Assembly (NCBI GenBank): GCA_017469525.1
Contig: JAFUGG010000013.1
Coordinates: 186,001-250,000, forward strand
Direction: 5' to 3'
Length of the DNA stretch: 64,000 bases
Source of the DNA: Bacteroidaceae bacterium
GTDB taxonomy: Bacteria > Bacteroidota > Bacteroidia > Bacteroidales > Bacteroidaceae
Below the pieces are notes generated by a model. That model was not told where the DNA came from. It searched no databases and saw only the letters and a list, made by a program, of their open reading frames with translations. Position numbers and translations under genes: made by a program. Shown piece after piece: positions 6,589 through 61,479 of the stretch (the first letter of the stretch is position 1; every line of letters starts with the position of its first letter).

Positions 6589-9156
6589 TTACCTGATGAC
6601 TTTCTTTCCTTTAATGATATTGATGCCCCGAGGCAATTTACGATTTGACGATTTACTATTTACGATTTGCTGACCAGCGAGATTGTAGATAGTGTCCTTA
6701 AAGTCCTTAAGGTCCTTAAAGTCCTTAAGGTCGTTAAGACCAGTAGCCTCATCACCCAGAACGATGTCGTAAGCCTTGACTCCCGAAGCAGTCCTGATGG
6801 CTGCGCGATAGGGATTGAGCGTACCGCTGTTTACGCCGACGAACTGACCTTCGGAAAGGCCATAGACGCCATTGACGCTTTGAGCATTGTATGTGCCGAA
6901 GAACTCAAAGTCGCCTACAGAATAGGACAGCGAGGCAGGCGTCTGAGGAAGCAGTGTCTCGTCCATGTCCTCGAGGAGTTTGCCGTCGTTGGCAGGAACG
7001 AGAACATAAGGTTTGTTGGCTTCGGTTCCGGCTGTTACAGGAGCAAACACAAGAGTTGTTCCTGAGATGGAGCTCAGTTCGTATGCCGTGCCGTTAAGCT
7101 TGTCGGAAGGAACAGCGACAGGCAGGATGAAGGAAACCATACGACCTGCTTCCACGTTGCGGTCATAGCTTACGCTTGCCACCTGCATATCAGCTTTGAT
7201 TTCCGGCAATGCCTTTCCGTCCTCAAGAAGAAGGTTGGTGCCGTAATAGGTAAGAATGAAGTTGTCGAACACGCACCATGGCGATTCGGCATTCTGCTGA
7301 GAGCGGACGCCAAGGCGAAGCGTGCCGTCGGATACCCAGACCTTAACCGAAGCCTTATACTCGCCAGCATTGAAGGCCTCACCAGCAGCGCGGGTGTTTT
7401 CCACTTCGTCTGTGATGACGTCGAGTGCCGTCTCGCTTTCGTTAGCAAAGAGCACGCCATCGGCATTCTTCGTGAATGCTTGTGCCTGAAGTTCATAGAG
7501 GCCGTTCGGCATATCGGTCAGCACTTGATAGACCTCGACATTCGCATCGCTGCTCTGTCCCACATAGTTGGGGTCGTTGTTCGTGGCATCTTCCACATTG
7601 AAGTTGCCTTGCCACGTCTGATACATCCTGTCGTGACGTCCGAAATAAGAACCTTTGACGAGCGGCGTGGCGTTGACGGGAGCGGATGCCGAAGCAGCGG
7701 CCATCTCTGCCTTAATCACTTCGGGCGTGACAAGTTCCCATTGGGCAATCTCGGGCGAAGCGAGCAAGCCAAGGAACTGCAAGCCAGAGCGTCCGTCGCC
7801 ATTGTCCTGAATGACCTTCGATTCGAAGTCGTCTATCCGAATGGCATACCTGCCTTCGCCCGTCTTATGGAGCGTGTAGTTGAATGCCCCGCCATCGACG
7901 TAGCCGTTCGTGCCAATGAAGTGACTGCCTTCGTTCTCGAACACTTGGCTGTCCAACGTATAGAAGCCGTTTCCCTGATATGTTGATTTAATGTTCAAGC
8001 CATTGAAGGCATTCGTGGCAAGCTGTGTACCCCAATCGTGGCCTTGCGAGATGTAGAGACCGCTTGCCACGTTGCGAAGCAGATAGGTGCCGTCGGGAAC
8101 TATCGGCGTATCAGCCTCTACGGCAGCAACCGTTGTTTCTGTTCCGTAATAGTAAAGTTCGAAGTTGTCGAACACGCACCAAGCGTTAGCGTCCGCCCCA
8201 CTTGCCTTGATGCCGATGCGAAGTGTGCCGTCGGTCACTTCCACTGTGACGGTGTTCTTGTACTCACCGCCATTGAAGGCGTTTCCTGCTGCCTCGCAGT
8301 TCGCTGGATTAGAGCCGTCGGCGATGTTCCTCAATGGCGTCTCGGCACTTCCTGCATAGAGCTTTGCCACGACACCTTCGCCGGCACCTGCCTTATAGAA
8401 GCCTTGAGCACAGAGTTGATATGTGCCGTTAGGCAGACCGCTAAGCGTCTGATGGATGTCGTAATCCGTGACGCCTGTCTTCTGGCCGACGTAGTTGCTT
8501 CTGTTGCTGCCCCAGTCGAGAATGTCGCGAGGTGTTTGTCCTGCTTCGCACAAGCCTTCCCAAAGGGCAGCCGGACCGTCGTCGTGGCGGCAGAAGTCCC
8601 AGCACTCTATCATGAAGGTGGCGTCCTTCGGGAAACCATTATAGAGCGATGGAGCGGTAAGCTCTGCCAGCAAGTCGGCTTTGGTGAGCATCTGCCAGAG
8701 GAAGACGTAGTCGCGGTTCTGGTTGTTCCAATCGTTGTGGTTGTCGGAGAAGCGCCCACGATCTGTTTCCCAAGGATAGTTCTGGCAAAGTTGCTCGCTG
8801 TTCTCTGCATTCACAATCAGGGCAAGGTGCTTTGCCTCGTCCACCCATGAGATACTGAGCGGCGTGCCGCCATTGTCTATCCAGCAGTCGCCACGGAACC
8901 AATGCTCGTTCATGTTGTCGCCCGAGAGGTTGGTGTTCAACTTGTAGACGCCATCCACTTTCTCGTAGGTGAAGCGTTTGCCATGCTTGCCCATAGCAGC
9001 CATCACGCCCCAGTCATGTCCTGCCTTCAGGAACATACCCGTGGCATTGTTTCGGATGAAATAGTCACCCTCGGGAATCTCGTTCTCCGCATACAGAGAA
9101 GAGAAAACCATTCCCGTCAACATTCCCATCAATAAAATCTTTTTCACCATACTCAT
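6589..9156 (-). CDS. Large secreted protein with two repeated lectin-like/beta-sandwich modules
   Basis: 855 residues with a signal peptide ('ILLMGMLTGMVFSSLYA'). Two copies of a composite module occur. Each begins with a 'PEGDYFIRN'/'PDGTYLLRN' segment with a 'GHDWG' pair, reminiscent of a ricin-like fold (~25-160 and ~345-440). Each continues with a beta sandwich marked by 'LPNGTYQL'/'MPNGLYEL' and 'WCVFDNFELYYYG'/'WCVFDNFILTYYG'. No catalytic signature was recognised, so carbohydrate binding is an inference. The C-terminus has an in-frame low-complexity linker (DLKDFKD repeats) and a tail with 'NLAGQ' and 'GINIIKGKKVIR'. No promoter box was found in the 188-bp upstream gap, which suggests read-through from the 1006-residue gene. 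ATG 9150 is an alternative start. Confidence 0.8.
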   Translation of the reverse strand: MSMVKKILLMGMLTGMVFSSLYAENEIPEGDYFIRNNATGMFLKAGHDWGVMAAMGKHGKRFTYEKVDGVYKLNTNLSGDNMNEHWFRGDCWIDNGGTPLSISWVDEAKHLALIVNAENSEQLCQNYPWETDRGRFSDNHNDWNNQNRDYVFLWQMLTKADLLAELTAPSLYNGFPKDATFMIECWDFCRHDDGPAALWEGLCEAGQTPRDILDWGSNRSNYVGQKTGVTDYDIHQTLSGLPNGTYQLCAQGFYKAGAGEGVVAKLYAGSAETPLRNIADGSNPANCEAAGNAFNGGEYKNTVTVEVTDGTLRIGIKASGADANAWCVFDNFELYYYGTETTVAAVEADTPIVPDGTYLLRNVASGLYISQGHDWGTQLATNAFNGLNIKSTYQGNGFYTLDSQVFENEGSHFIGTNGYVDGGAFNYTLHKTGEGRYAIRIDDFESKVIQDNGDGRSGLQFLGLLASPEIAQWELVTPEVIKAEMAAASASAPVNATPLVKGSYFGRHDRMYQTWQGNFNVEDATNNDPNYVGQSSDANVEVYQVLTDMPNGLYELQAQAFTKNADGVLFANESETALDVITDEVENTRAAGEAFNAGEYKASVKVWVSDGTLRLGVRSQQNAESPWCVFDNFILTYYGTNLLLEDGKALPEIKADMQVASVSYDRNVEAGRMVSFILPVAVPSDKLNGTAYELSSISGTTLVFAPVTAGTEANKPYVLVPANDGKLLEDMDETLLPQTPASLSYSVGDFEFFGTYNAQSVNGVYGLSEGQFVGVNSGTLNPYRAAIRTASGVKAYDIVLGDEATGLNDLKDFKDLKDFKDTIYNLAGQQIVNSKSSNRKLPRGINIIKGKKVIR
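6636..6670. repeat. AT-rich 9-10-bp low-complexity repeat inside a coding sequence
   Basis: Repeats of the TTTACGATTT/TTTACTATTT type code for the 'NSKSSNRK' part of the 855-residue protein tail. The same kind of sequence, on the other strand, lies between genes at about 50570-50610 and just upstream of this gene (9157-9178). Confidence 0.7.
6694..6738. repeat. 5 x 9-bp in-frame repeat (GTCCTTAAR)
   Basis: Five tandem 9-bp units, in frame, encode alternating LKD/FKD triplets as a linker before the C-terminal tail of the 855-residue protein. Confidence 0.9.
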
Positions 9157-9231
9157 TTACTATTTGACTATTAAAAAATTACGATTCATTTTCGCTTTAG
9201 TGTCGGCGTTCGCAGAAAGGCGACTGGCCAA

Positions 9232-9328
9232 ACGCAGCACTATGTGTCGCCCGATGCAGCACTATGTGTCAGCCGACGCAGCACTATGTGTCAGCCGACG
9301 CAGCACTATGTGTCAGCCGACGCAGCAC
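9232..9328. repeat. 22-bp tandem array A (4 units plus a 9-bp partial)
   Basis: Units start at 9232, 9254, 9276, 9298 and 9320 (partial). The core reads ACGCAGCACTATGTGTCAGC, and it includes short inverted repeats CAC-tat-GTG and GTC-agcc-GAC. It lies between two minus-strand genes. Units 2-4 are nearly identical. Confidence 0.95.
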
Positions 9329-9344
9329 GCGACGTTTTCCACCC

Positions 9345-12300
9345 TTACCTGATGACTTTCTTGCTGCCCTCTGCCGACTTGATGATATAGACAGCCTTTT
9401 CCTTCGGACGGAACGCTGTGCCTTCGCCTTCGTAGACCATTCTGCCGTCCATCGTATAGACCTTCACCTTGCCTTCCAGCGAGACGGTTCCGTCCACCTT
9501 GCCAATGCCGTCGGCTCCCGACACGTTGGGGTCGCAGAAGATAATCCTTTCGCGGTTCATGTCGAAGCTGATGCAATACTCGCCCACGGGGATGAGCCAC
9601 TTCGTGTCGCCACGGTAGCGGTTGAGGTCGTCGTAGATGACATCCTTCTCAGCATCGTTCGTGTAGCCGGCATTACCATAACGTGCATGGTTCCAGTCGT
9701 ATGGGTCGCGGCAAGCAAAGAGCGTGACGCCGGCCCTGCCATTATCGAAGTCCTCGAGGGTGACTACGCCCTCGTAGATGCCATCGCCCAGATGTGCCAA
9801 CGGACAAGCATCGTTGCGCTGCCAATGGCCGGTGGGCAGTGTGCCTGCCAAATAGACGTTCTCGGGCCAAGGATACTCGCCGACGGGCTGCATGTCGATG
9901 GTCATGTTCTCGAGGTCGATGTCCACGTCGAAGTCGCCACCTGTCGTGTTGAAGCAGTCGTCGTCGCGGTTCGTGAGCAGACCCATCTTCTTGGCATGGT
10001 GAGCAGGCGTGAAGAAGCGGTCCAAACTGCCTGCCTCTCGGCCGAAGCTCTTGCCCTGATATACGAAATAGATGCTGGCGCGACCGCCCCAACCCTCGCT
10101 TCTGTCCTGAAGAGAGATGCGTCCCGTGTAGTGACCATTCTCGGCGCGCGAGAGCGGATAGAGCATACAGAGCTGGTTCCAATCACCGTCCAGCATGTCG
10201 CCATAACAATAGATGGCGTCGAGTTCGGGCAGACGATAGATGTCATGAGCCAGCTGCAAAGCCTCTTCGTCCGTATAAGTACCTTCCCAGATGCCGTTCC
10301 AACATTCGTTGTAGAAGCTCTCCAGTTCCGTGTAACGCTCTTCGGAAACATTCGGGTTGCCCGTGAAGGCGATGTCCGACATGTATTCCAAAGCCGTCAC
10401 CAGCGTGTCGTAACACTCGATGCCCTGATATACATTATTTATATATGTGTTGATGTCGGCCAGCATCTGCAGCTTCTCTTCGCCGTCCTCACACGCCTTG
10501 GCTGCGGCAATGGTGTTCGTCAGGAGTTCGAGATGATCGTTATAGAAATAGGTGTCGCTCATCCCGGAAAGCATATCGGCACGAGTTTCCATATTATTCA
10601 GCATATCGTTCACTGCATTTTCATCGTGAGCGCGGAAGATAAGCTGAAAGTCTGCCCATACACACCAGTCATTATTGTAATATGGTTTGCGAGTATGTCG
10701 CATGCCTAGAGTGAGTATTCCATCGGTTACGATGGCGTATGCTTTCTGCTTATAACGACCTCCATTGAAAGCAATTGAAGCGCCATGGCTGCTGTTCGGC
10801 ATGTAGCCGTACTCGTCGCTGAAGTCATCTTGCGGCCAACTGCCCACGTTGTCTATCCAACAGTTCTCATGATTGCGGGCTTCGTCGGCAGCGACGCCGT
10901 CGGAAATGATGCTCTGCACCGTGGTGGTATAGCCGTTCATATAGACCTCGACGGGCAGCTTCTCCACGGGATAGTACATGCCTTGACCGGGACGATAGAG
11001 TGCCTGGAAGTCCAACTCATAGATGCCATCGGGCAGAGTATTCTCGATGGTCTGGTGGAAGTCGAACGAGCAGTTCCAAGCCTCGCCGAGCCACACGTCG
11101 GAATACTGCTGCCATCCGTCGGCCTTGGCACCTGTGCGAGAGTAGAAGTTGCCGCTGTTCGTGCGCGACCACTCCCAGCCTTCGAAGTTCCCTTGGCTGA
11201 AGTCGGCGTTCTTAATCATATAGGTGATGTTCGTGCCATCACCGATGCCGTTCTCCACGGCCGTCGTGTAGAGAGTTTCCATGAAGGTGATTTCCTCGAG
11301 AAGCTCCTCGGTGGTGAGGGCCTTGCTGTCAATGATGTAGCCGAACGAACCACGTGGGAAGGTCTCATCCGGCTCTACATAATCGGTGAGATAGGCTTCG
11401 AGGACGTCTCTCTCTTCACCATATATTTCGTTTTCATACATCTTCTTGAGCAGTTCTTCCTGCTTCTGCTTGTAGGCTTCATAAGCATCGGCATTGGCTT
11501 TCACGCTGAGGCAAAGGGAATCCACGAGGCTGAATGTGGCAATGATGTCTGCGGGAGCTTCGGCGTTCCGGAAGTTCTCGACGGCTGCGGCGTAAGCCTC
11601 CTTGAGCGACTCCACAGCAAAGAGTTCCGAGAGGTCCTGTATGAGTTCCGTCTGTTGCTCTTTGATGAGAAGGTAGGCATCATCGGAAGAACCGAGATAA
11701 TAAAGCTTCCAGTTGTCCACGATGCTCCATTGTCCCTCGATGTAATTAGGGTCACGGAAGCCGATGGTCAGGTTTCCGTCGGTGACGCAAACGTAGGTGC
11801 TGTTCTCTTCATAATAGCCACCCATCGTGTAGAAGTGGAAGGATTCAGGATTATCGGGGATGTATGTGCCGTTAGCAAGCTGTGCTGTGCCGTACTCGGA
11901 GGCAGGCTCGAAGGTGGAGCAGGCAGCGAGGTCCATGACAGGAGCACTGAGGTCGATGCCGCCGCTCTTGCCGTAGAGGACAGAAGTACGCAAGGTCTCG
12001 TCCGAGAGGACACCAGAGTTGTACCATGAATCCCAGTAGTTGCCGACGCGATGAAGCGCGCTCGCGTTCAGTTCGTACACGCCATCGGGGAGGTCGCTGC
12101 CAAGGTTCTGGTAGTGGTCGAAGGGGTGGTTCCAGTTTTCCCACGTTCCCCAAGAGACTTGGGTCGCGCTTGTTCCTTCCCATCCGGCACGGCTGTCGCC
12201 GTCGTAATTAGGGTTGACGATGAGCAAGGTCATGTCCAGAGGCTCTTCCAGAGAAGCCTCCGAAGCCAGATTGAACAGGGAATCTCTGACTGAAGTTTCA

Positions 12301-12365
12301 GTTTGTGCCCAGCCAGCACTGCAGATAAGCAACGCAAGGGGCAGGGAGTAGAATTTTGATTTCAT
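9345..12365 (-). CDS. Large secreted multimodular protein, putative glycan-binding, with T9SS-like tail
   Basis: 1006 residues with signal peptide 'PLALLICSAGWA'. It contains at least two beta-sandwich modules of the kind seen in the next gene: 'LPDGVYELNASAL' with 'NWKLYYLG' (to ~residue 225) and 'LPDGIYELDFQALYRPGQG' with 'ADFQLIF' (~375-560). Helical segments rich in Glu and Ala separate them (~230-370 and ~560-690). The last ~90 residues form a sorting-type end ('VYTMDGRMVYEG ... YIIKSAEGSKKVIR'). No catalytic motif was recognised. The gene starts 12 bp after the arabinofuranosidase stop, so it is surely in the same operon. Its likely job is binding or presenting an arabinose-containing glycan at the surface, which is inferred from context only. 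Confidence 0.82.
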   Translation of the reverse strand: MKSKFYSLPLALLICSAGWAQTETSVRDSLFNLASEASLEEPLDMTLLIVNPNYDGDSRAGWEGTSATQVSWGTWENWNHPFDHYQNLGSDLPDGVYELNASALHRVGNYWDSWYNSGVLSDETLRTSVLYGKSGGIDLSAPVMDLAACSTFEPASEYGTAQLANGTYIPDNPESFHFYTMGGYYEENSTYVCVTDGNLTIGFRDPNYIEGQWSIVDNWKLYYLGSSDDAYLLIKEQQTELIQDLSELFAVESLKEAYAAAVENFRNAEAPADIIATFSLVDSLCLSVKANADAYEAYKQKQEELLKKMYENEIYGEERDVLEAYLTDYVEPDETFPRGSFGYIIDSKALTTEELLEEITFMETLYTTAVENGIGDGTNITYMIKNADFSQGNFEGWEWSRTNSGNFYSRTGAKADGWQQYSDVWLGEAWNCSFDFHQTIENTLPDGIYELDFQALYRPGQGMYYPVEKLPVEVYMNGYTTTVQSIISDGVAADEARNHENCWIDNVGSWPQDDFSDEYGYMPNSSHGASIAFNGGRYKQKAYAIVTDGILTLGMRHTRKPYYNNDWCVWADFQLIFRAHDENAVNDMLNNMETRADMLSGMSDTYFYNDHLELLTNTIAAAKACEDGEEKLQMLADINTYINNVYQGIECYDTLVTALEYMSDIAFTGNPNVSEERYTELESFYNECWNGIWEGTYTDEEALQLAHDIYRLPELDAIYCYGDMLDGDWNQLCMLYPLSRAENGHYTGRISLQDRSEGWGGRASIYFVYQGKSFGREAGSLDRFFTPAHHAKKMGLLTNRDDDCFNTTGGDFDVDIDLENMTIDMQPVGEYPWPENVYLAGTLPTGHWQRNDACPLAHLGDGIYEGVVTLEDFDNGRAGVTLFACRDPYDWNHARYGNAGYTNDAEKDVIYDDLNRYRGDTKWLIPVGEYCISFDMNRERIIFCDPNVSGADGIGKVDGTVSLEGKVKVYTMDGRMVYEGEGTAFRPKEKAVYIIKSAEGSKKVIR

Positions 12366-12377
12366 AATATAATTAGT

Positions 12378-14894
12378 TTAGATGTTGTTTTTCTTGAGCC
12401 ATTTCCTGCCGTCGCGGACATAGATGCCATCAGGCTTGGCGAGCGGAAGTCCGCTGATGGTGTAGGTTCCTGCCTTGACGTTCGGCACGGAGCTGCTGAC
12501 TTTGTTCATCCCCGTGCCTGCATCTTTTGCAGCAATCACAACGACGGTGTAGCTGTAGGACTTGAGGATGAGCCTTGCCCCGGGCATTACCGACGACTCG
12601 ATAGGCACGAAGCGTGTGGGCCGCTCGGGTGTGTTTTCGCCGCTTTCCGTGCCGCTGAGCGTGTATGTACGAATGTTTTCCACTTCGCCGAAGCCTGCCA
12701 AGTTAAGTGTCAAGCCTCGTGTCGAAGTGCCGTAGTTCACGATGTGCAGGACGATGGTGTCGCCTGCTTCGTTTCGGGTGGCGGTATAGTCAAGGTTATT
12801 GTTTGTGGAGCAAGAACTCTCGATGAGCAGCGGCTGATGGTTTGTAGCTGCCATCTGCTGGGCATAGAACGGTGGTTGCATCCAGACTTGGCTGGGCGAG
12901 AAGAAGATTTGTCCCTGGTCCCAGCCGTTGTCATTCTGTTTGTATGGCTGCAAGGCATTGGCGGGACTGTCCAGCGGCACAAACCCTCCGGCACGCCGAA
13001 CCACATTGAGCATGACGGCATGGGCAAGGGCGCGGGCCACGTCGTGCGTGTTGCCGTTCTCTTCCAGAATGGCGCATCGCATCGTGGTCTGTGGGTTCCA
13101 CTCGAGGAAATACTGCCGCATCTGTGCTATCTCCGTTTCTTTCTCCTTGGCTTGCTGTGGCGTCTCGGTCCACGGATGGTAGTCCCAGAGGTCGCACTTG
13201 CCGTCAAGCGACTGGAAGACGTACTTCATCGTCTCCACTTCATCTGGTCTCCACCAGGCTGCATTGATGAACTGAAGGCTCGGATAGGCTGCATGAATGG
13301 CTTCATACAAAACGAGGTATCGCTCGACGTAATGTTCGTAGTCGTGTCGAGCGGCACTGAACAGGTTCTCCTCGTTGCCTATCTCGATGTACTTCAACCC
13401 GTAAGGCTCGATGTACTGAAGCAAGGCGAGCACGTCGGCAGGATTGTCCTCGATGTTGATGGCAAAGCACGGCTCGGTGTCGATGAGACGGGCAAACTCC
13501 ATGAACTCGGGTATGGCGAAGCCGTTCGTGGCGTATCGGTACCAATGGCCAAGATAGGGTTGACGCTCGAGGCGGCTGCCCGTCATGTTCTTGGTCATGT
13601 ACTCGGCAGCATTGACCATCGTGCCGCCATAGCGGAGGAAACTGAGGTGTTGCTCGCGGAAGGCGTCGGTGATGTCCGAACGGAATGGGTAAGAGTCAGT
13701 ACAGAGCAACACCTGGTCGACCCAGACGCAGCCTTCTTCTGCCAGAGAGAGCACGAAACGTCCCTTCGGATCGCTTTCCGTGGGCGTCAGCTCGGCATCG
13801 AATCGCTGCCATTCATCCGTGAGACCACCGATTTCCGTGCGAGCATATTCCTTGCTTCCGTCTGCCGACTGGAGGGCTGCCAGCACTTTTGCATTGCCTT
13901 TCAGATAGAGGGAGAGCATGAGGCTCTCGCTTTTCTCAATGCCAATTCCCCAGCGATTGAGGCCCATGTTATAAGCCCCCACCCCCAACCCCTCCCCCAA
14001 GGAGGAGGGGAGTTCCGCGGCAGAAAGCCTCCCTCCTCGGGGGGAGGTTGGAGAGGGGCTGGCTATCTTCTGCGCATATTTGCCGGTGAAAGGACAAGAG
14101 GAGTCGTGGTCGAAGACACCCTCGCCGAGTGCCGTCCACATGCCAGAAACGTTAGGTCCGTCGCTCTCGAACGCCACCTCCTTTCCTGCGACTTTCAGAT
14201 TCCTGAATGTTGCCGAGCCGCCATAGGAACGCAGGCCTATGAAGCCCGACGTCAGAGGATTGTTCGTGTCCTCATAGGTCATGAGTTTCTTGCCGTTGAG
14301 GTATATCGTGAGCTTCGCTTTGCTGAGGATGACGCGCAGTTTATTCCATTCGCCCAAGGGGTTGAAGCTCGTCGGTGTGTCCGAAATGGGCTGCCAGTTC
14401 TGCTGATGCTTGCCGAGGACGAAGGAACCGAGGCGTGCGTTGAGTGCCACTTCATAACCGTTGAAAGCGTCGGCACCTGTGCCTGCATCGCTCACATGTA
14501 CTATCAATCCGGCGATTGCATTCAGGTCGTCCATGCGAAACTCCACTTCGACGGAGCCGCTCGAAAGCTGTTTCTCCTGGTAGATGAGCTTGCCGTGACC
14601 GGACGTCTGCAACTGCGCCATGCCCGACGTCACGCTCCAACGCTCGTCGTAGGCCTTGAAGCCTTTGATGTCGCAAAAGGCCGGTTCCTCGAAACCCTCG
14701 CCGAATATCTTCTGATCGTACAGGCCGCCATAGATTTCGTGATTGACGTCCTCGGCTCCAGCTCCGTAGATGAGCGGCTCTATCCGGCAGAGGACATGAC
14801 TGGCATCCACCGTCAACGTCTGAGCCGCGACAGGCATTCCGACGAAAGACACAAGTAGAAAAGACAGTACGAGACGGGTAATTTTCTTCTTCAT
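12378..14894 (-). CDS. GH51-like alpha-L-arabinofuranosidase with inserted LamG/DUF1080-type domain
   Basis: 838 residues from ATG 14892-14894, where a signal peptide begins ('LVLSFLLVSFVGMPVAA'); a longer frame to 15023 runs through array C and was rejected. After a short GH51 start ('IEPLIYGAGAEDVN') a laminin-G/DUF1080-like module follows (~50-230), then a beta-sandwich region and the catalytic barrel. 'YIEIGNEEN' carries the expected acid/base Glu and 'CAILEENG' the probable nucleophile Glu. The enzyme should release alpha-L-arabinofuranose from side chains of pectin or arabinoxylan. The chain ends with 'YTISGLPLAKPDGIYVRDGR', a sorting-type tail. A GC-rich hairpin repeat is inserted in frame at 13976-14063. 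The symporter gene lies 172 bp upstream. Confidence 0.87.
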   Translation of the reverse strand: MKKKITRLVLSFLLVSFVGMPVAAQTLTVDASHVLCRIEPLIYGAGAEDVNHEIYGGLYDQKIFGEGFEEPAFCDIKGFKAYDERWSVTSGMAQLQTSGHGKLIYQEKQLSSGSVEVEFRMDDLNAIAGLIVHVSDAGTGADAFNGYEVALNARLGSFVLGKHQQNWQPISDTPTSFNPLGEWNKLRVILSKAKLTIYLNGKKLMTYEDTNNPLTSGFIGLRSYGGSATFRNLKVAGKEVAFESDGPNVSGMWTALGEGVFDHDSSCPFTGKYAQKIASPSPTSPRGGRLSAAELPSSLGEGLGVGAYNMGLNRWGIGIEKSESLMLSLYLKGNAKVLAALQSADGSKEYARTEIGGLTDEWQRFDAELTPTESDPKGRFVLSLAEEGCVWVDQVLLCTDSYPFRSDITDAFREQHLSFLRYGGTMVNAAEYMTKNMTGSRLERQPYLGHWYRYATNGFAIPEFMEFARLIDTEPCFAINIEDNPADVLALLQYIEPYGLKYIEIGNEENLFSAARHDYEHYVERYLVLYEAIHAAYPSLQFINAAWWRPDEVETMKYVFQSLDGKCDLWDYHPWTETPQQAKEKETEIAQMRQYFLEWNPQTTMRCAILEENGNTHDVARALAHAVMLNVVRRAGGFVPLDSPANALQPYKQNDNGWDQGQIFFSPSQVWMQPPFYAQQMAATNHQPLLIESSCSTNNNLDYTATRNEAGDTIVLHIVNYGTSTRGLTLNLAGFGEVENIRTYTLSGTESGENTPERPTRFVPIESSVMPGARLILKSYSYTVVVIAAKDAGTGMNKVSSSVPNVKAGTYTISGLPLAKPDGIYVRDGRKWLKKNNI
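13976..14063. repeat. GC-rich inverted-repeat element inserted in frame in a coding sequence
   Basis: C-rich and G-rich arms (CCCCTCCCCCAAGGAGGAGG and CCTCCTCGGGGGGAGG types) surround a centre near 14020. In the arabinofuranosidase it encodes a Pro/Ser/Gly/Leu-rich insert including 'SPSPTSPRGGRLSAAEL' and 'SSLGEGLGVGA', foreign to the fold. Similar arms are frequent between genes in this phylum; here the copy keeps the frame open. Confidence 0.85.
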
Positions 14895-50612: not shown

Positions 50613-52319
50613 ATGTCTTTACTTGTAATCTTTAAGCTCTTGGGCTCTTTAGCTCTCTTGATGTTCGATATGAAATCCATGAGCGAAGCCCTGCAGAAGA
50701 TGGCTGGCCCGCAGTTGCGTCACGTGCTTGGTGCCATGACGACAAATCGCTTTACCGGTGCCTTGACGGGTATGTTCGTGACGGCAGCAGTGCAAAGCTC
50801 CACGGCAACGACGCTGATGACGGTCTCGTTCGTGAATGCCGGCTTGCTGACACTCGTTCAAGCCATCTCCGTCATCATGGGTGCACATATCGGCACGACG
50901 CTGACAGCTTGGATCATGTCACTTGGCATGGGCTTCAACATCACAGACTTCGTCTACCCGGCATTCTTCATAGGCATCATACTTATATACATGAAGAAGC
51001 GCAGGATAGTAGGCGATTTCCTGTTCGGCGTGGCATTCCTGTTCTTAGGTTTGGGCACGTTGAAGGAGACAGGCTTCGCACTGGTGGAGGACCCTGCCTC
51101 CAAAGAAGCCATCGCAGCCTTCTTTACCGAATACAGCAGCGGAGGTTTCTTCGTGAACCTTCTCTTCCTGCTGATGGGCACCGTACTGACGCTCTGCGTA
51201 CAGAGCTCAGCTGCCATCATGGCCATCACGATGATGCTTTGCTCAACGGGTGTCCTGCATATCGACCAAGGCGTAATGCTTGTGCTGGGCGAAAACATCG
51301 GAACAACCATCACCTCCAATATCGTGGCTCTGAGCGCCAACACACAGGCTCGCAGAGCTGCCTTTGCCCACATGACGACCAACGTGCTGGGTGTCTGCTG
51401 GGTACTCATACTGCTGAAGCCTTTCTTCGCTATGGTATGTCATCTGGCAGCCTTCGACCCCACGATGACGCCTGACGAGCCCGGCTTCGCCATCAAGGCA
51501 AGCGTGGCACTGGCAACATTCCATTCTGCCTTCAACATCAGCAACACGGCTCTGCTCATCTGGTTCGTGCCGCAGATAGAGAAGTTCGTCTGCTGGGCCA
51601 TCAAACCCAAGAGCTCTGTCGAGGAAGAAGACTTCCGTCTGCACTTTATCACGGCCGGCATCATGAAGACGCCTGAGCTCTCCGTGCTCGAAGCACATAA
51701 GGAGATTATTTCCTTCAGCGAACGCATCCAGCGCATGTTCGGAATGGTAACAGAACTGCTGACGGAGAAGGACCAGAACAAGTTCAGCAAGCTCCTGAGC
51801 CGCATCGAGAAGTATGAGAACATTGCCGATAACATGGAAATCAGCATTGCCGAATATCTCGACCAAGTAAGCGACGCACATCTGAGCGACGACACAAAAG
51901 CCAAGATTCGCGCCATGCTACGTGAGATTTCAGAAGTGGAGAGCATCGGCGACTCGTGCTACCACATGGCCCAAACCATCAACCAGAAGGTTCAGGGCAA
52001 GAAGGAACACTTCACGGAGGAACAATACAAGAACCTGCACACCATGATGGGTCTGACGAACCAGGCCTTGACACAAATGAACCAACTCATCAGCGGCAGG
52101 AAGGACTCATTCGACGTCTACCGAAGCTACAACATCGAGACAGAGATAAACAACTACCGCGACCAGCTGAAGTCGCAGAACATCATCGACGTCAACAACC
52201 ACAAGTACTCCTATGGCATCGGAACCATCTACATGGAACTCATCAATTCCATGGAAAGATTGGGAGACTACGTAGTAAACGTGGTGGAAGCCCGCACCGG
52301 AACAAAGATGCAAGGCTGA
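50613..52319 (+). CDS. Na+/phosphate cotransporter (PNaS family) with PhoU-like C-terminal domain
   Basis: 568 residues. The two Na/Pi-cotransporter repeats each carry a QSS motif: 'AAVQSSTATTLMTVSFVNAG' and 'LCVQSSAAIMAITMMLCSTG'. Eight or more membrane helices lie before residue ~330. Residues ~350-565 are PhoU-like helices ('RIQRMFGMVTELLTEKDQNK', 'EVESIGDSCYHMAQTINQ', 'MERLGDYVVNVVEA'). It imports, or in some bacteria exports, phosphate with sodium; the PhoU part probably regulates it. Confidence 0.93.
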   Translation: MSLLVIFKLLGSLALLMFDMKSMSEALQKMAGPQLRHVLGAMTTNRFTGALTGMFVTAAVQSSTATTLMTVSFVNAGLLTLVQAISVIMGAHIGTTLTAWIMSLGMGFNITDFVYPAFFIGIILIYMKKRRIVGDFLFGVAFLFLGLGTLKETGFALVEDPASKEAIAAFFTEYSSGGFFVNLLFLLMGTVLTLCVQSSAAIMAITMMLCSTGVLHIDQGVMLVLGENIGTTITSNIVALSANTQARRAAFAHMTTNVLGVCWVLILLKPFFAMVCHLAAFDPTMTPDEPGFAIKASVALATFHSAFNISNTALLIWFVPQIEKFVCWAIKPKSSVEEEDFRLHFITAGIMKTPELSVLEAHKEIISFSERIQRMFGMVTELLTEKDQNKFSKLLSRIEKYENIADNMEISIAEYLDQVSDAHLSDDTKAKIRAMLREISEVESIGDSCYHMAQTINQKVQGKKEHFTEEQYKNLHTMMGLTNQALTQMNQLISGRKDSFDVYRSYNIETEINNYRDQLKSQNIIDVNNHKYSYGIGTIYMELINSMERLGDYVVNVVEARTGTKMQG

Positions 52320-54973: not shown

Positions 54974-57900
54974 TCACCAAAGAGCAAGCCTCTTTTGTCC
55001 GTTCTGGATGTAAATACTCTTGGGCTGCTTCTCATTCACCATTTGGCCGCTGAGAGTATAGATGTTCATGTCTGTCTCTGTCCTGGACGTCTGACGCACC
55101 TGGACAGACTGTATACCGTCGTCTATGTCTGGTTCAAGCATCTTATCGCGAAAGGCATTGATGACAGCATTGGTGAAACCGAAGTACGATTTCACATACT
55201 CGCGGAATTTATCCTCGAGGGTCTCACCCTTCATGGTTTCGACGGCTGCAAACATCTCGTCGAGCTGCCCCTTGCTGCATGGGGTACCCCAGTAGGAGAA
55301 ATTGGTCAGCTCATAGTCCTTGTATATGTCGCTCTTGCTCATGCCAAGCAGTCCCTCGAGCAGGAAGGCAAGTGTGCCTGTCCTGTCACGGCCTATGGCA
55401 CAATGGAAATAAACTGGTTTTTCGGCCCTCACCTGTGTGAACACGTATTGCAAGGCTGTCTTGTATGTGGCCTTGGAGCCAGTGAGGCCGTTCATGTGGC
55501 TGGCAGTCTGCCCTAAAGGTGTACGTTTGTAACTGATGTCTGTACCCAGCACAGACCGTGTGATGCTCTTTGCTTCTGAGTCGCTACGCAGGTCGAGTTC
55601 TGCCTTGATGCCAGCCTGTCGCAATGCCTCGATGCCTTCGGGCTCCAGCGAGTGACCGCCGTTCCACTCTCCTCCACGGAACAGTTTGCCGTACTTCACT
55701 CGGCACCCGTTGGCTACAGGCCAGCCGCCCAGGTCACGCACATTGGCTGTCCCATCGGCTTTGAGGTGACGCATCTGTCCGGAAGTGAAGAACGAGAAGT
55801 ATCCGAGAACTCTCTGCTCATCATCAGGAGTCTGGGCTGTTATCTTGCAATAATATGTACGACGGGGAATGAGATTATAAATCTCGTATGAAGCCGCATC
55901 TAAAGGCACTTCGCATTTCACGGCATTGGCAAAGTCGGGGTTCTCGCTCCACGTTATCCATTGTGCCTGGGCAGTAGTGTCTTGTGTCCAGAAGACTTCC
56001 ACAGGCACAGGCCAGTCACGGCGTTCTGGCGGGTTCTGGTTGTAGGTGCTCACCTTGCTTGCATCGTCCTGGGTGTACTCGAAGTCGTGCACGAAGCCAC
56101 GCACCCTGCCGTTCTCGAGGTTGTAGTCCATGCTGAACGTGCCGGTGGCAGCGGGATGCAGCCTCCACATCTGGCGTGTCGTGTATGTACCGTTGTAGGT
56201 GCGTACCCTGGAGCCCGTATAGCTGTATGGCATCGTCGATGGGCCTTGAATCTTGAAGCTTCCGCCCTGTGCCCATGTTATGGTTTGCTCGCAGTCCGGC
56301 TCCTGTGTCAGCGAGATGGGTCTGTTGGAAGTGTTGGAACCTACCACAGTGCCCACGAACATCCCGTCCTCGCCATATTGCATCAGCCAACCTCCATTCT
56401 TGCGGGTCAGCTTGAAGTATGGCGGTGTATCGACCTCCTCAAGATTTACAACCGTCAGACCGTCAGTCTTTGCCTTGTCGGGATTGGCCGTGAGTGAGTA
56501 GCCAGGGAAGGCCACATTCTCAAAGCAGTAATAGCCTTCGTGGAGCGGATAGCAGTAGAGGCTGTTGTAGGCCGATATGATGCCGTTGACGGCTTTGTTG
56601 AGCTGCTCGAGGGTTGCAGTCTCGTCGAGGCTTTTAGCCTCGGCAATGATATTGTTCAGAGCCTCGACGCTACTTGCGGAATAGCATCCAGGGTCTGTGC
56701 CGACGGCATCACCTGCCGGAACCTTCGCCGTATAGTCGGCAAGCACCTTTTGCAGGTCCTCGTAAGAAACCTCTTCCCAAAGGTCGCCGATGATATCGTA
56801 CTCGCTCCAAGCAGCATCGGCCATGAAAGCCTGGTACATTGATGGGCGTACGTGGACATTGGCTCCATTGAAACTGAAGGTATAGGTGCGAAGCTTGGGC
56901 ACAGCATCGCAGTTCATAAAGACTTCGTACTTTTTCGCACCGTAGATGCAGAGTTTGTCGCCCCATGTGTTGGCTGCTATGTTCTCGCCGAAGATTATCT
57001 TTTCCAGTACCTTATTATAGCCCAATGCCTCATAGTCCATCAGAGTCACGGAGTTTGGCAGGACTATCTCCGTAAGCTGTGTCTGATAGATGGCTTTGTA
57101 GCCAAGGCTGGTGATACCCTCGGGCAGGTTCAGCGCAGTGACGTCGGCAAAGTGGAAAGCGTAGTCACCGATGGCCGTCACGTCGTATGTGGTGCCCTTG
57201 ATGGTCACCTGGGCCGGTATCGTCACCTCGCCGATATATGTACATTTGTTGGAAGCTGATGGCTGTGCAGCATTGGGATATGTTACAGCCACGGTTTTGT
57301 CGCCCGTGAACATGTACTTGATGCCATCGATAGTCATGTCATCGTCGGTGACTTCGGTGTCGTTGTGCGGAACGGGGAATTCTGCTCCCTGGGTCCAATT
57401 GTAGATATTCAGTTTTTCGGGCAAGGTGCCGTCGGTGAGTTGCGCTGCGGTGACGAAGGTGACGCTTGGTACCTTCGTCGCTGCCGTAGAGCTGCCTGCA
57501 ACGGACAAGCCCTGCAGGACATAGTTGTTGACAAACGATGTGGCATCCGAGGTGCTGTTGCCTACCAGAGCGCCACTTCGGGTAGCACCCGAGGGACTGG
57601 TGATGGTGCCGATGCTCAGATTGTTTGCTATGCTCAGTCCGCTCCTTGCGCTGCTGCTATAGCCCACGATACCTCCCTGATAAGCACTTCCGCTTGCTGT
57701 GCCTGTGGAGATGAGTGAACCGGCAAAGAGACAGTTGCTCACGGTGGTGTTGTTGGCATCGGGCCATCCTAAGATGCCAGCCACCTGCAGGTTGGTGGCT
57801 TCGCCGTCTATCGTTCCGTCATACACACAACGGGTGATGGTGCTTCCTTCTGCCCTGACCACAATGCCTGCCATGCGTAGCGACACAGAAGTTACTGTAG

Positions 57901-59209
57901 GATTGGTGATGTCCACCGAGCACCAGATATCCCTTATCTTATGAGCACCGTTCGAGGATGCTACCACGCCTGCTGCGAAGTGATCATATGTGGTTCCGGA
58001 AGCAACTACTGATCCTGATATCTCGAAGTCGTGAACATCCTTTGTGCCACTGTGATATCCGATGAAGGCAGAGAAGCTAACAGAAGCATCGGCCTGTATC
58101 TTGAGGTTCCTGATGCTATGTCCTTGCCCGTCAAATTCTCCACTGTGTTTGTTGACACCATTTCCCATAGGTGTCCAAAGGCGGTTCTCGAGGTCAATGT
58201 CTGCTGTAAGGCGAGCATTGGCAACTGTTGTTCCGTTGTTCACCATGAAGGCCAGCCAGAAGAGTTTACCGCCATTGTCTATCTGGTAGTATCCGTCACT
58301 GTCTTGACGGGCGGGTTCAAAGGGAGCGGTGTTACAGGTGCAGAAGCCGTTGACGTAGTTGTGCTCATGCGAGCGAGAGGTAGCAATGATGATGTTAGGC
58401 ACGTTGCGAACCGCACCGCCACTGAGTCTGTTTACCACACCGGCGCCAGACACCCAAAGTGTCGATGAGCCACCACCGTCAAGGTTTATGGCATCCGTCA
58501 ATCCGAGGTCTTCGGCAAGGGAGACCATGTTGGCGGTGGAGAAGCCTGTTGCCCCATCAAGACGTCCCTCCATCACCACCATATAAACTGTTCCGTCTGC
58601 CGTCTTGCCAAGCATCGTTCGGGGGTGTGGACCGTAAAACCCTTCACCGCCTATGTTGGCATCCACACTGACTCCACCCCGACGGATGATGGGTCCGGCG
58701 ATGACAAAGGCATCGTACTTCTTTCCCCAACTGGCAAGTGTGGCAGACGAGGTGGAGGCTGTGCAGGGTTCGATGGTGAAGTTGCCGTCTTTGAAGCATA
58801 AGGCACCGTTGCAACGGGCAAATTCCTCGGGTGCAGTGGTTGTTATCTCAGAGCCATACATCCAGACGGCTGTCGTGGAAGAATAGGTGCTCATGTTGAA
58901 ATAGCTGCCGTTGATAGCTACTGCGGCGCCGGCCTCAATGGCGAGGCTGTTTGTGCCTTGCGAAGAATGCTCTTTGTCGAAGAGCATGGTGCTCATCGCT
59001 GCTGAGGAATATTTGGCAATCGCCACTGCCTGAGCAGAGCCATACAGGTCAGTAAAAGTGGTACGGCCGTACGTCACTCCGTCGCGTTCCTGCCAATTCC
59101 AATCGGCACTGGCCAGTATCGAAGCATAGTCTGTGCCCTGTGCGACTTGTGCCGTAGCAAAAAAGAGAAGCAGAACCAGAAGGGCTCTGAGGGTTGTTGT
59201 TAGTTTCAT
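54974..59209 (-). CDS. Secreted fusion: NAGPA-type phosphodiester glycosidase + LRR/other modules + tyrosine phosphatase domain
   Basis: 1411 residues from ATG 59207-59209, giving signal peptide 'LRALLVLLLFFATAQVAQG'; the longer frame to 59374 is out-of-frame neighbour sequence. Domains: DUF2233/NAGPA (~25-300; 'AINGSYFNMSTY', 'HPRTMLGKTADG', 'INLDGGGSSTLW'), GLUG-like repeats (~330-640), BspA-type leucine-rich repeats (~690-850), a small helical module, a lectin-like part and an FnIII-like part (~1040-1140). Last comes a tyrosine-phosphatase domain with 'ANVRDLGGWPV' and 'YFHCAIGRDRTGTLAFLLEG' (Cys near 1270, HCxxGxxRTG). The tail 'NIYTLSGQMV...SIYIQNG' is sorting-like. NAGPA enzymes cut GlcNAc-1-phosphodiesters; the joint presence of a phosphatase suggests sequential removal of sugar and phosphate (inference). 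Confidence 0.85.
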   Translation of the reverse strand: MKLTTTLRALLVLLLFFATAQVAQGTDYASILASADWNWQERDGVTYGRTTFTDLYGSAQAVAIAKYSSAAMSTMLFDKEHSSQGTNSLAIEAGAAVAINGSYFNMSTYSSTTAVWMYGSEITTTAPEEFARCNGALCFKDGNFTIEPCTASTSSATLASWGKKYDAFVIAGPIIRRGGVSVDANIGGEGFYGPHPRTMLGKTADGTVYMVVMEGRLDGATGFSTANMVSLAEDLGLTDAINLDGGGSSTLWVSGAGVVNRLSGGAVRNVPNIIIATSRSHEHNYVNGFCTCNTAPFEPARQDSDGYYQIDNGGKLFWLAFMVNNGTTVANARLTADIDLENRLWTPMGNGVNKHSGEFDGQGHSIRNLKIQADASVSFSAFIGYHSGTKDVHDFEISGSVVASGTTYDHFAAGVVASSNGAHKIRDIWCSVDITNPTVTSVSLRMAGIVVRAEGSTITRCVYDGTIDGEATNLQVAGILGWPDANNTTVSNCLFAGSLISTGTASGSAYQGGIVGYSSSARSGLSIANNLSIGTITSPSGATRSGALVGNSTSDATSFVNNYVLQGLSVAGSSTAATKVPSVTFVTAAQLTDGTLPEKLNIYNWTQGAEFPVPHNDTEVTDDDMTIDGIKYMFTGDKTVAVTYPNAAQPSASNKCTYIGEVTIPAQVTIKGTTYDVTAIGDYAFHFADVTALNLPEGITSLGYKAIYQTQLTEIVLPNSVTLMDYEALGYNKVLEKIIFGENIAANTWGDKLCIYGAKKYEVFMNCDAVPKLRTYTFSFNGANVHVRPSMYQAFMADAAWSEYDIIGDLWEEVSYEDLQKVLADYTAKVPAGDAVGTDPGCYSASSVEALNNIIAEAKSLDETATLEQLNKAVNGIISAYNSLYCYPLHEGYYCFENVAFPGYSLTANPDKAKTDGLTVVNLEEVDTPPYFKLTRKNGGWLMQYGEDGMFVGTVVGSNTSNRPISLTQEPDCEQTITWAQGGSFKIQGPSTMPYSYTGSRVRTYNGTYTTRQMWRLHPAATGTFSMDYNLENGRVRGFVHDFEYTQDDASKVSTYNQNPPERRDWPVPVEVFWTQDTTAQAQWITWSENPDFANAVKCEVPLDAASYEIYNLIPRRTYYCKITAQTPDDEQRVLGYFSFFTSGQMRHLKADGTANVRDLGGWPVANGCRVKYGKLFRGGEWNGGHSLEPEGIEALRQAGIKAELDLRSDSEAKSITRSVLGTDISYKRTPLGQTASHMNGLTGSKATYKTALQYVFTQVRAEKPVYFHCAIGRDRTGTLAFLLEGLLGMSKSDIYKDYELTNFSYWGTPCSKGQLDEMFAAVETMKGETLEDKFREYVKSYFGFTNAVINAFRDKMLEPDIDDGIQSVQVRQTSRTETDMNIYTLSGQMVNEKQPKSIYIQNGQKRLALW

Positions 59210-59220
59210 ATGTATCTTCT

Positions 59221-61479
59221 TTAGAGACTTCCGTTTACAAAGGCTTCGGCTTCTTTCAGGGTGTCGAGCTTGCCGACGTCCATGAGCTTCAGCCCGGGCT
59301 GGATGTGGCCATATATGGGCTCCTTGTCGCAGACGCTTAGGTAGAAGTCGATGATGCTGAACTTGTCTCCCCATTCGTCGAAGTACCTAAACAGACGTGG
59401 GTTCATATAATGGATGCCGGCAAAGGCGTACCTCTGGTAGTGCCGGGGGTCGAGACCCGGATAGGGACTGCGCACTTCACCTGTGCCGGTGTTGGTCCAC
59501 CCCACGAGCCTCATGTCGTCGTCGAAGAGAAGAAGGCGCTGGGTCTCGCGCTGGCTGACGAGCAGCGTTGCTGCCCTGCCTCGTCCTGCTTCTGCCAGGG
59601 CGCGCAGGTCGGCATTGCTCAGAATGTCAACATTGTGGATGAGGAAGCCATCCTGAGCATCACGAAGCAGAGGCTCGGCATGTTTGATGCCGCCGCCTGT
59701 CTCGAGCAGTTGCTCGCGTTCGTCGCTGAAAAGGATGCGCATCTGCATGGGGTGCTGCTGGCACCAGTCCTCTATCATGTCGGCTAAGTGATGGACGTTG
59801 ATGACTACATCGTTGAAACCGGATGCTTTCAGTTTGCTAAGCAAATGCTCAATCAAAGGCTTTCCAGCGACAGGCACGAGAGCCTTTGGCATGGTGTCGG
59901 TGAGTGGCTTGAGACGTGTCCCCAGGCCTGCGGCAAAGACCATGCAGCGGGCTGGCGTCAGCACCTGCTCTATGCCCCTTTCACGATGGTAGATGTGCAC
60001 CTCGATGCCGAACTTCCTGTGGATGTGCTCGGCAAGATGCTGGGCACTATAGACGCTGCGATGCTGACCGCCAGTGCAGCCGAAGCTGAACATGAGGCTG
60101 GTGAAGCCTCGCTGGATGTAGCGCGCGATGTGTGCATCTGCCAGTTTGTAAACGCTCTCCAGGAAGGTCAGTATCTCCCCGTCGTCCTCGAGGAAGCGAA
60201 TGACGGGCTCGTCGAGTCCTGTCAACTGTTTGTATGGTTCGTAACGCCCCGGGTTGTGCGTGCTGCGGCAGTCGAAGACATATCCTCCGCCGTTGCCACT
60301 CGTATCCTCCGGAATACCTTTCTTATAAGAGAAACTGAACACGCGAACGACCAGGGGACCTTGTGCATCGTAGCGGGAGAATGTGGCCGGTCCGTCCTGC
60401 GGATGAGCATTGTATGGGTTGAGTTCTGTGGTCTTGAAGCCGTCGGCACGCGTCACTTCTTTCTGTGTTTCTGCCTTAAACTGAGGCATTGACACAAGGG
60501 CGGTAAGTACCTCGTTCAGATATGGATAAGGGCATCCGCCTTCACCAAGCAATTCTCGAAGGCTTTCCATTGCAGGGGGGATGCTTTCGAGGAAGTGTTT
60601 CTTGCGCTCGAAGTATCCACGGAAGCCATAGGCGCCAAGCACTTGGAGCAGCCGGAAGAGCACCTGGAGCTGCAGTCCCTGGCGGAATTGTTTCTCGCTG
60701 ACCTCCCGGTACCGGCTCAAGCTCTGCAGGTACACCCCTATGAGCTCCTCGCGAAGCTTCTTCGGGTAGCGTGCCGAGGCTTGCCAAAGGAAACTTGCCA
60801 CGTCGTACTGAACGGGACCTCGCCGACCGCCCTGGAAGTCGATGAAGAAGGGATTTCCCTGGCTGTCGAGCATGACGTTGCGGGCTTGGAAGTCGCGATA
60901 CATGAAGGCGCTGCCGGGGATGCCGGCGATGTCGCGTGCCATGAGACGGAAGGATGCCTCGAGCTTCAGTTCGTGGAAGTCGAGTCCTGTGGCTTTTAGG
61001 AAGCAATACTTGAAGTAATTGAGGTCGAACAGGACGTTTGTCTCGTCGAGAGCTTCCTGCGGATAGCATTGCGAAAAGTCGAGCCCCTGTGCTCCACGAA
61101 TCTGCATGGCAGGCAGTGCGGCAATGGTCCGCCTGAGCAGTTCTTTTTCATGGGCATTATAGCGGCCTCCTGCTTCCCGTCCACCTTTCAGGGCATCGAA
61201 GAGAGACCGGTTGCCGAGGTCGCTCTGGAGGTAACGCAAGCCGTCCTTGCTCTCTGCAATAACCTGCGGAACCGGCAGTCCAGCCTCGGCGAAATGCTTG
61301 GCCAGATAACAGAAGGCATGGTTCTCGTCGCGGCTGGTGCCGACAGCACCTATCAGCGTGCTGCCGTCCGTTCCCGTCAGGCGATAGTACTTGCGGTTGC
61401 TTCCGGCACCGGCAATGGCATCTGCGCAGGCCACTTCAAGTCCCGTTGCTTCTTTATACAGTTGCTTCAGTTTTTCCAT
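59221..61479 (-). CDS. Triple fusion: AmgK-like amino-sugar kinase, RapZ C-domain, MurU-like nucleotidyltransferase
   Basis: 752 residues, cytoplasmic. Residues 1-330: APH/AmgK-type kinase with 'MYRDFQARNVML' (catalytic Asp196, Asn201) and 'FIDFQGGRRGPVQYDVASF' (metal Asp214). Residues ~345-505: RapZ C-terminal domain ('VFSFSYKKGIP', 'FDCRSTHNPG', 'FGCTGGQHRSVYSAQHLAEH'). Residues ~508-752: sugar nucleotidyltransferase ('FAAGLGTRLKPLTDTMPKAL', 'HNVDILSNADL'). AmgK and MurU turn MurNAc into MurNAc-1-P and UDP-MurNAc in cell-wall recycling. RapZ's C-domain senses GlcN6P in E. coli. One chain would then hold kinase, sensor and uridylyltransferase (inference). It overlaps the permease gene by 13 bp and lies 11 bp before the phosphodiester glycosidase gene. 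Confidence 0.88.
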   Translation of the reverse strand: MEKLKQLYKEATGLEVACADAIAGAGSNRKYYRLTGTDGSTLIGAVGTSRDENHAFCYLAKHFAEAGLPVPQVIAESKDGLRYLQSDLGNRSLFDALKGGREAGGRYNAHEKELLRRTIAALPAMQIRGAQGLDFSQCYPQEALDETNVLFDLNYFKYCFLKATGLDFHELKLEASFRLMARDIAGIPGSAFMYRDFQARNVMLDSQGNPFFIDFQGGRRGPVQYDVASFLWQASARYPKKLREELIGVYLQSLSRYREVSEKQFRQGLQLQVLFRLLQVLGAYGFRGYFERKKHFLESIPPAMESLRELLGEGGCPYPYLNEVLTALVSMPQFKAETQKEVTRADGFKTTELNPYNAHPQDGPATFSRYDAQGPLVVRVFSFSYKKGIPEDTSGNGGGYVFDCRSTHNPGRYEPYKQLTGLDEPVIRFLEDDGEILTFLESVYKLADAHIARYIQRGFTSLMFSFGCTGGQHRSVYSAQHLAEHIHRKFGIEVHIYHRERGIEQVLTPARCMVFAAGLGTRLKPLTDTMPKALVPVAGKPLIEHLLSKLKASGFNDVVINVHHLADMIEDWCQQHPMQMRILFSDEREQLLETGGGIKHAEPLLRDAQDGFLIHNVDILSNADLRALAEAGRGRAATLLVSQRETQRLLLFDDDMRLVGWTNTGTGEVRSPYPGLDPRHYQRYAFAGIHYMNPRLFRYFDEWGDKFSIIDFYLSVCDKEPIYGHIQPGLKLMDVGKLDTLKEAEAFVNGSL

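Follow-up and report, generated by a model that had tools for sequence, protein, structure and literature searches.

Why should a single bacterial protein carry both a NAGPA domain and a tyrosine-phosphatase-type domain? To our knowledge, NAGPA/DUF2233 genes are common in bacteria, and their substrates are largely unassigned. The question is raised by a gene in a 64,000-nucleotide stretch of the genome of a rumen Bacteroidaceae bacterium (contig JAFUGG010000013.1, positions 186,001 to 250,000; the whole stretch is hereafter called the window). An open reading frame (ORF) on the minus strand at window 54974-59209, with the ATG at 59209 and the stop codon at 54976-54974, encodes a protein of 1411 amino acids (aa). 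It consists of a signal peptide, a NAGPA domain, an IgA1-protease-type beta-helix, an LRR_5 leucine-rich repeat (LRR), a helical segment, a ricin-type beta-trefoil, a fibronectin type III (FN3) domain, a Y_phosphatase3 domain and a short tail, in this order. We consider the chances about even that it is a secreted, probably surface-anchored two-enzyme protein which works in two steps to strip a glycan of its phosphodiester-linked sugars. The features of the gene are as follows.

54974..59209, minus strand: whole gene of the NAGPA-phosphatase fusion protein, 1411 aa (ORF, Pfam, genus search)
59135..59209, minus strand: predicted signal peptide, residues 1-25 (hydrophobic N-terminus in all orthologues)
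58370..59134, minus strand: NAGPA / DUF2233 domain, residues 26-280 (PF09992, model and structural matches)
58460..58480, minus strand: NAGPA motif DGGGSST, residues 244-250 (DGGGS invariant in 47 aligned sequences)
58562..58570, minus strand: E214-G215-R216 (alignment of NAGPA domains)
57356..58369, minus strand: right-handed beta-helix of the IgA1-protease type, residues 281-618 (structural match 3n6z, alignment)
56834..57346, minus strand: BspA-type LRR, residues 622-792 (PF13306, structural match 4fs7)
56552..56776, minus strand: helical segment, weakly FIVAR-like, residues 812-886 (sub-threshold PF07554, helices in the model)
56144..56548, minus strand: ricin-type beta-trefoil, lectin-like, with putative sugar binding, residues 888-1022 (structural match 3nbe)
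55772..56116, minus strand: FN3 domain, residues 1032-1146 (weak Pfam matches in orthologues, profile search, Foldseek)
55136..55765, minus strand: Y_phosphatase3 domain, residues 1149-1358 (PF13350, structural matches)
55376..55405, minus strand: phosphatase P-loop HCAIGRDRTG, residues 1269-1278, with C1270, R1274, D1275 and R1276 (alignment of 58 sequences)
54977..55132, minus strand: C-terminal tail, residues 1360-1411, a probable type IX sorting signal (motif-like despite its variability among orthologues)

Domains, active sites and distribution

The order of NAGPA, leucine-rich, lectin-like and phosphatase domains had been proposed in a preliminary description of this DNA, and Pfam and structural matches bear it out. 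The NAGPA family PF09992 matched residues 94-275 (E 3e-28, 99.5 bits against a curated cut-off of 25), the Y_phosphatase3 family PF13350 residues 1150-1358 (E 3e-32, 113 bits, cut-off 22.2) and LRR_5 (PF13306) residues 676-745 (E 7e-9). Two AlphaFold models were used, one of residues 26-618 (mean pLDDT 84.7) and one of residues 618-1372 (mean pLDDT 90.4); the enzyme, beta-helix, LRR and trefoil assignments are backed by these confident models and their strong structural matches. The modelled NAGPA domain (residues 26-280) resembles the Bacteroides DUF2233 protein 3ohg (Z 25.3) and guinea pig NAGPA 6pku (Z 23.2). The phosphatase domain resembles a Clostridioides difficile protein tyrosine phosphatase (PTP; 8dhj, Z 20.9) and Mycobacterium tuberculosis PtpB (1ywf, Z 20.6), and the LRR segment a Bacteroides LRR protein (4fs7, Z 16.8). 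The lectin-like module is real: residues ~888-1022 have a beta-trefoil fold with a Z of 17.4 to the ricin B-like lectin 3nbe. A sub-threshold ricin-type Pfam match lies elsewhere, at residues 302-351, in the beta-helix, a module that the preliminary description had not named. Residues 281-618 are closest to the beta-helices of Bacteroides and Gram-positive IgA1 proteases; the model aligns over 295 residues to a putative IgA1 protease of B. ovatus (3n6z, Z 29.7, rmsd 3.1). FIVAR (PF07554) stays under its cut-off (E 0.08) in a segment modelled as helices. The FN3 domain gives weak Pfam fn3 matches in orthologues, and fibronectin chains were matched by profile search and Foldseek.

From its binding modules and secretion signals, the protein would carry out its reaction extracellularly. 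The tail, described earlier as a secretion tail, has the look of a Bacteroidota C-terminal sorting domain and is probably a type IX signal. No curated tail model in Pfam or NCBIfam matched the protein. Among orthologues the tail is variable yet motif-like, with a mean column identity of 50%, and the type IX protein SprA is encoded in the genome of the window (SprA_N, E 2.9e-220). In the window, a loose regular expression for such tails matches the fusion gene and one other only, and is too loose to serve as a test.

Both active-site signatures are complete, in agreement with the preliminary description. The NAGPA family motifs NG.YF, PR(T/S), [DE]GR and NLDGGGS are all present, and in an alignment of 47 NAGPA domains the residues N100, P196, R197, G215, R216 and N242-S248 (NLDGGGS) are invariant. 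An alignment of 58 phosphatases likewise showed H1269, C1270, G1273, D1275, R1276 and G1278 to be invariant, which includes the CX5R P-loop. Residue 1274 varies in this alignment: 30 sequences have R, 27 have A and one has C. In the fusion protein the P-loop reads HCAIGRDR and thus departs from the strict PtpB-type signature HCXXGKDR, with Arg in place of Lys and the Asp retained. As far as sequence can tell, neither domain has become inactive across the homologues: all orthologues examined retain DGGGS, NGSYF and PRT of NAGPA and HCAIGRDR of the phosphatase. Mean column identity among orthologues is 81% for NAGPA and 87% for the phosphatase. In six close orthologue pairs, dN/dS was 0.03-0.14 for the NAGPA domain and 0.03-0.09 for the phosphatase domain, indicating that strong purifying selection keeps both. 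Given the invariant signatures and this selection, neither domain looks dead, and that explanation was ruled out.

A whole-genome search found the fusion in 25 of the 139 genomes of the genus, intact in 23 and split by contig ends in two. The named records are uncultured Prevotellaceae or Bacteroidaceae assemblies, many of them labelled as gut of goat, sheep, yak, water buffalo or roe deer. Since orthologues at 68-75% identity occur in independent assemblies of the genus, the fusion is neither chance nor a chimera, and an assembly artefact was rejected on the strength of the 23 intact copies. Twenty of these have the full architecture. The ~340-residue beta-helix is missing from the other three (L029, with 1085 aa, L030 and L031) and is therefore dispensable for the fusion. 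In a 344-genome sample of the order, at the cut-off used, both enzymes were found only in the window's own genome. No relative was detected in the viral contigs scanned, and viral spread was dropped as an explanation. The sister genus contributed a single fused copy (L075, 1-4047, minus strand, assembly G370), which may reflect transfer or mis-binning. The same assembly also carries an unlinked phosphatase with the P-loop type of the fusion (L081).

Linkage of the two enzymes in relatives

In other sister-genus genomes, NAGPA and phosphatase are encoded by separate, neighbouring genes on the same strand. At locus L054 (genome G269), for example, NAGPA (8056-9747) and an LRR-phosphatase (9776-14773) are ~28 nucleotides (nt) apart. 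At L069/L077 and L078, a gene for a 461- or 462-aa protein stands between NAGPA and the LRR-phosphatase, all on the same strand. At L069 (4927-9400, plus strand), a type I dockerin forms the C-terminal end of both the 461-aa protein and the phosphatase, perhaps a complex-forming arrangement. In the NAGPA tree, the phosphatase-linked domains form one clade (support 100/99; L054 was excluded from the trees). Within this clade, NAGPA is fused to or beside a phosphatase wherever the contig is long enough; L028, L032 and L079 are cut by contig edges. Outside it, none of 20 NAGPA genes had a relative of this phosphatase within ~5 kb. A candidate pair in genome G334 (L074) was rejected, as its two genes, on opposite strands, are separated by more than 4 kb and by other genes, and its NAGPA falls outside the linked clade. 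The occurrence of both a gene pair in relatives and a gene fusion supports a functional link between the enzymes.

The two active sites have changed in the same clade, from DGR to EGR in NAGPA and from GADR to GRDR in the phosphatase. EGR, in most cases followed by a somewhat longer loop, is found in the fused proteins and in L075, L079 and L054, and DGR in L077, L078 and the remaining NAGPA proteins of the alignment. GRDR is found in the fused proteins and most sister-genus relatives, and GADR in L077, L078 and nearly all others. In PtpB, the Lys at the corresponding P-loop position plays an important part in binding phosphoinositides, and the Asp after it is catalytic (PMC3091653). The joint change may be read as an adaptation to a substrate with extra negative charge.

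Apart from the linked clade, about five of 20 standalone NAGPA loci (L121-L140) have adjoining phosphoesterase genes from different superfamilies on the same strand (GDPD, PHP, His_Phos_2, Metallophos together with alkaline phosphatase, and HAD), a suggestive count made post hoc and without a background rate. At L130 (4881-6660, minus strand), two NAGPA-like genes with DGGGS form a tandem pair.

Proposed function and rival explanations

NAGPA enzymes cut a sugar-1-phosphodiester to a phosphomonoester, and the animal enzyme exposes mannose-6-phosphate in this way (PMC12024695). A phosphomonoester belongs to the substrate class of phosphatases, so a phosphatase on the same chain could remove the phosphate. 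In the proposed mechanism, the NAGPA domain would hydrolyse the sugar-1-phosphate bond of a sugar-1-phosphodiester, free the capping sugar and leave a phosphomonoester. The PtpB-like domain would then take off the exposed phosphate through a cysteine-phosphate mechanism in which the P-loop Asp serves as the general acid, while the beta-trefoil, LRR and beta-helix would hold the protein on the glycan or the cell surface. Candidate glycans are rumen fungal or protist phosphomannan, teichoic-acid linkage units and phosphodiester-containing capsules. We infer the catalytic activity, the order of the steps and the single shared substrate. In its strictest form, the proposal describes a single-polypeptide machine which dismantles sugar-1-phosphodiester decorations, uncovers and dephosphorylates the same position, and has had both sites shifted together (EGR with GRDR); this form is put forward tentatively, at somewhat short of even odds. 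The preliminary description had likewise suggested that the protein uncovers and then hydrolyses its target: the coupling is supported by the neighbouring separate genes, and action on one substrate stays conjectural. It had also named a host target, a preference for which the evidence gives no ground over a microbial or dietary one.

Several observations weigh against two-step clearing of a glycan. One phosphatase, at L065/L081, has the same P-loop type and no adjoining NAGPA gene. More generally, most phosphatase relatives occur without NAGPA, which means that the phosphatase also has roles independent of it. The linkage may be traceable to a single ancestral pairing inherited by descent, in which case it represents one event and not many. 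The fusion gene also occurs in many different neighbourhoods without a conserved polysaccharide-utilisation locus; such a locus was considered and rejected, as no neighbour is kept across loci.

Rather than acting in sequence, the two domains could be independent activities on an adhesive scaffold, with NAGPA trimming a glycan and the PtpB-like domain dephosphorylating protein or phosphoinositide targets in rumen protozoa, fungi or the host. Among characterised phosphatases, the nearest ones, M. tuberculosis PtpB and the Listeria enzymes, do act on phosphoinositides and phosphopeptides, the fusion has an Arg at the position of the PtpB Lys discussed above (PMC3091653), and adhesin-like modules are present. 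However, a basic residue at this P-loop position is largely confined to the NAGPA-linked clade, with GADR in related phosphatases, the adjacency of the two enzymes also occurs without fusion, and extracellular delivery gives no obvious reach to cytoplasmic phosphoinositides. We regard this explanation as unlikely, with roughly one chance in four left to it in our judgement. Phosphate scavenging, in which sugar and inorganic phosphate would be gained from mixed phosphodiesters, nucleotide sugars and pieces of teichoic acid among them, and no dedicated glycan would be involved, is rated lower and seems improbable. It would fit the hydrolysis of UDP-GlcNAc by animal NAGPA (PMC12024695), the position of some unlinked NAGPA genes beside genes for alkaline phosphatase, metallophosphoesterase, GDPD, PHP or histidine phosphatase, and a putative Na/Pi cotransporter gene at window 50613-52319. 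The large binding modules are conserved across orthologues, though, which suggests a specific polymeric target.

A third explanation starts from the neighbouring genes. Immediately upstream, at 59221-61479 on the minus strand, a 752-aa protein with APH-type kinase, RapZ_C and NTP_transferase domains is encoded, an arrangement reminiscent of an AmgK-MurU fusion that carries RapZ_C as an insert; its stop codon is ~10 nt from the start of the fusion gene, and a GH25 muramidase gene lies nearby. The fusion protein could thus act in cell-wall salvage, on the GlcNAc-1-phosphate linkage of wall teichoic acid, and feed this AmgK/MurU-like kinase-nucleotidyltransferase. The upstream gene would suit a cell-wall sugar, but it is common to four loci only (the window, L039, L040 and L050), other orthologues having other neighbours, and it therefore carries little weight. 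An operon with it was rejected as the general context, and cell-wall salvage is considered very improbable.

Relation to known proteins and implications

Each domain family of the fusion is known. The mannose-6-phosphate uncovering enzyme NAGPA and the Bacteroides protein BACOVA_00430 (3ohg) share fold and conserved motifs with the NAGPA domain of the fusion, but they have DGR and no phosphatase, whereas the fusion has EGR, a phosphatase and binding modules. PtpB-like enzymes (M. tuberculosis PtpB, C. difficile PTP 8dhi, Listeria Lmo1800/Lmo1935) have the same P-loop Cys, Asp and Arg, and the fold is common to M. tuberculosis PtpB, the C. difficile PTP and the fusion phosphatase (Z 20.6-20.9). 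They differ in having GKDR instead of GRDR, and only the fusion, whose function is predicted, joins the phosphatase to FN3, trefoil, LRR, beta-helix and NAGPA. A second LRR-phosphatase family of the same genus (L033-L037) is 43-47% identical over the LRR-to-phosphatase part and also has LRR_5 and Y_phosphatase3; in contrast to the fusion, it has no NAGPA domain and its P-loop reads HCHIGADRTG. A fusion of NAGPA with a second enzyme, together with extracellular binding domains, has been described in the prok-TelC/NAGPA proteins of Bacillota (PMC12419801, eLife 2025). There, in a different phylum, the second enzyme is a Lipocone domain and not a phosphatase.

In the open-access literature searched, no paper naming both families and no description of NAGPA with a phosphatase were found, and a search of it for bacterial NAGPA substrates gave nothing useful. 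The combination thus appears undescribed in the literature searched. The earlier statement that no characterised protein has this domain order holds for this literature, which was the sole scope of the check.

The fusion, together with the separate gene pair in relatives, gives a clue to the role of NAGPA, namely to make a phosphomonoester that is later removed. If the proposal is true, the protein would provide a pair of enzymes for breaking down phosphodiester-linked glycans, and rumen bacteria would have a way to gain sugar and phosphate from the walls of fungi, protists or bacteria. It would then be a bacterial catabolic counterpart of animal mannose-6-phosphate uncovering, aimed at a rumen glycan.

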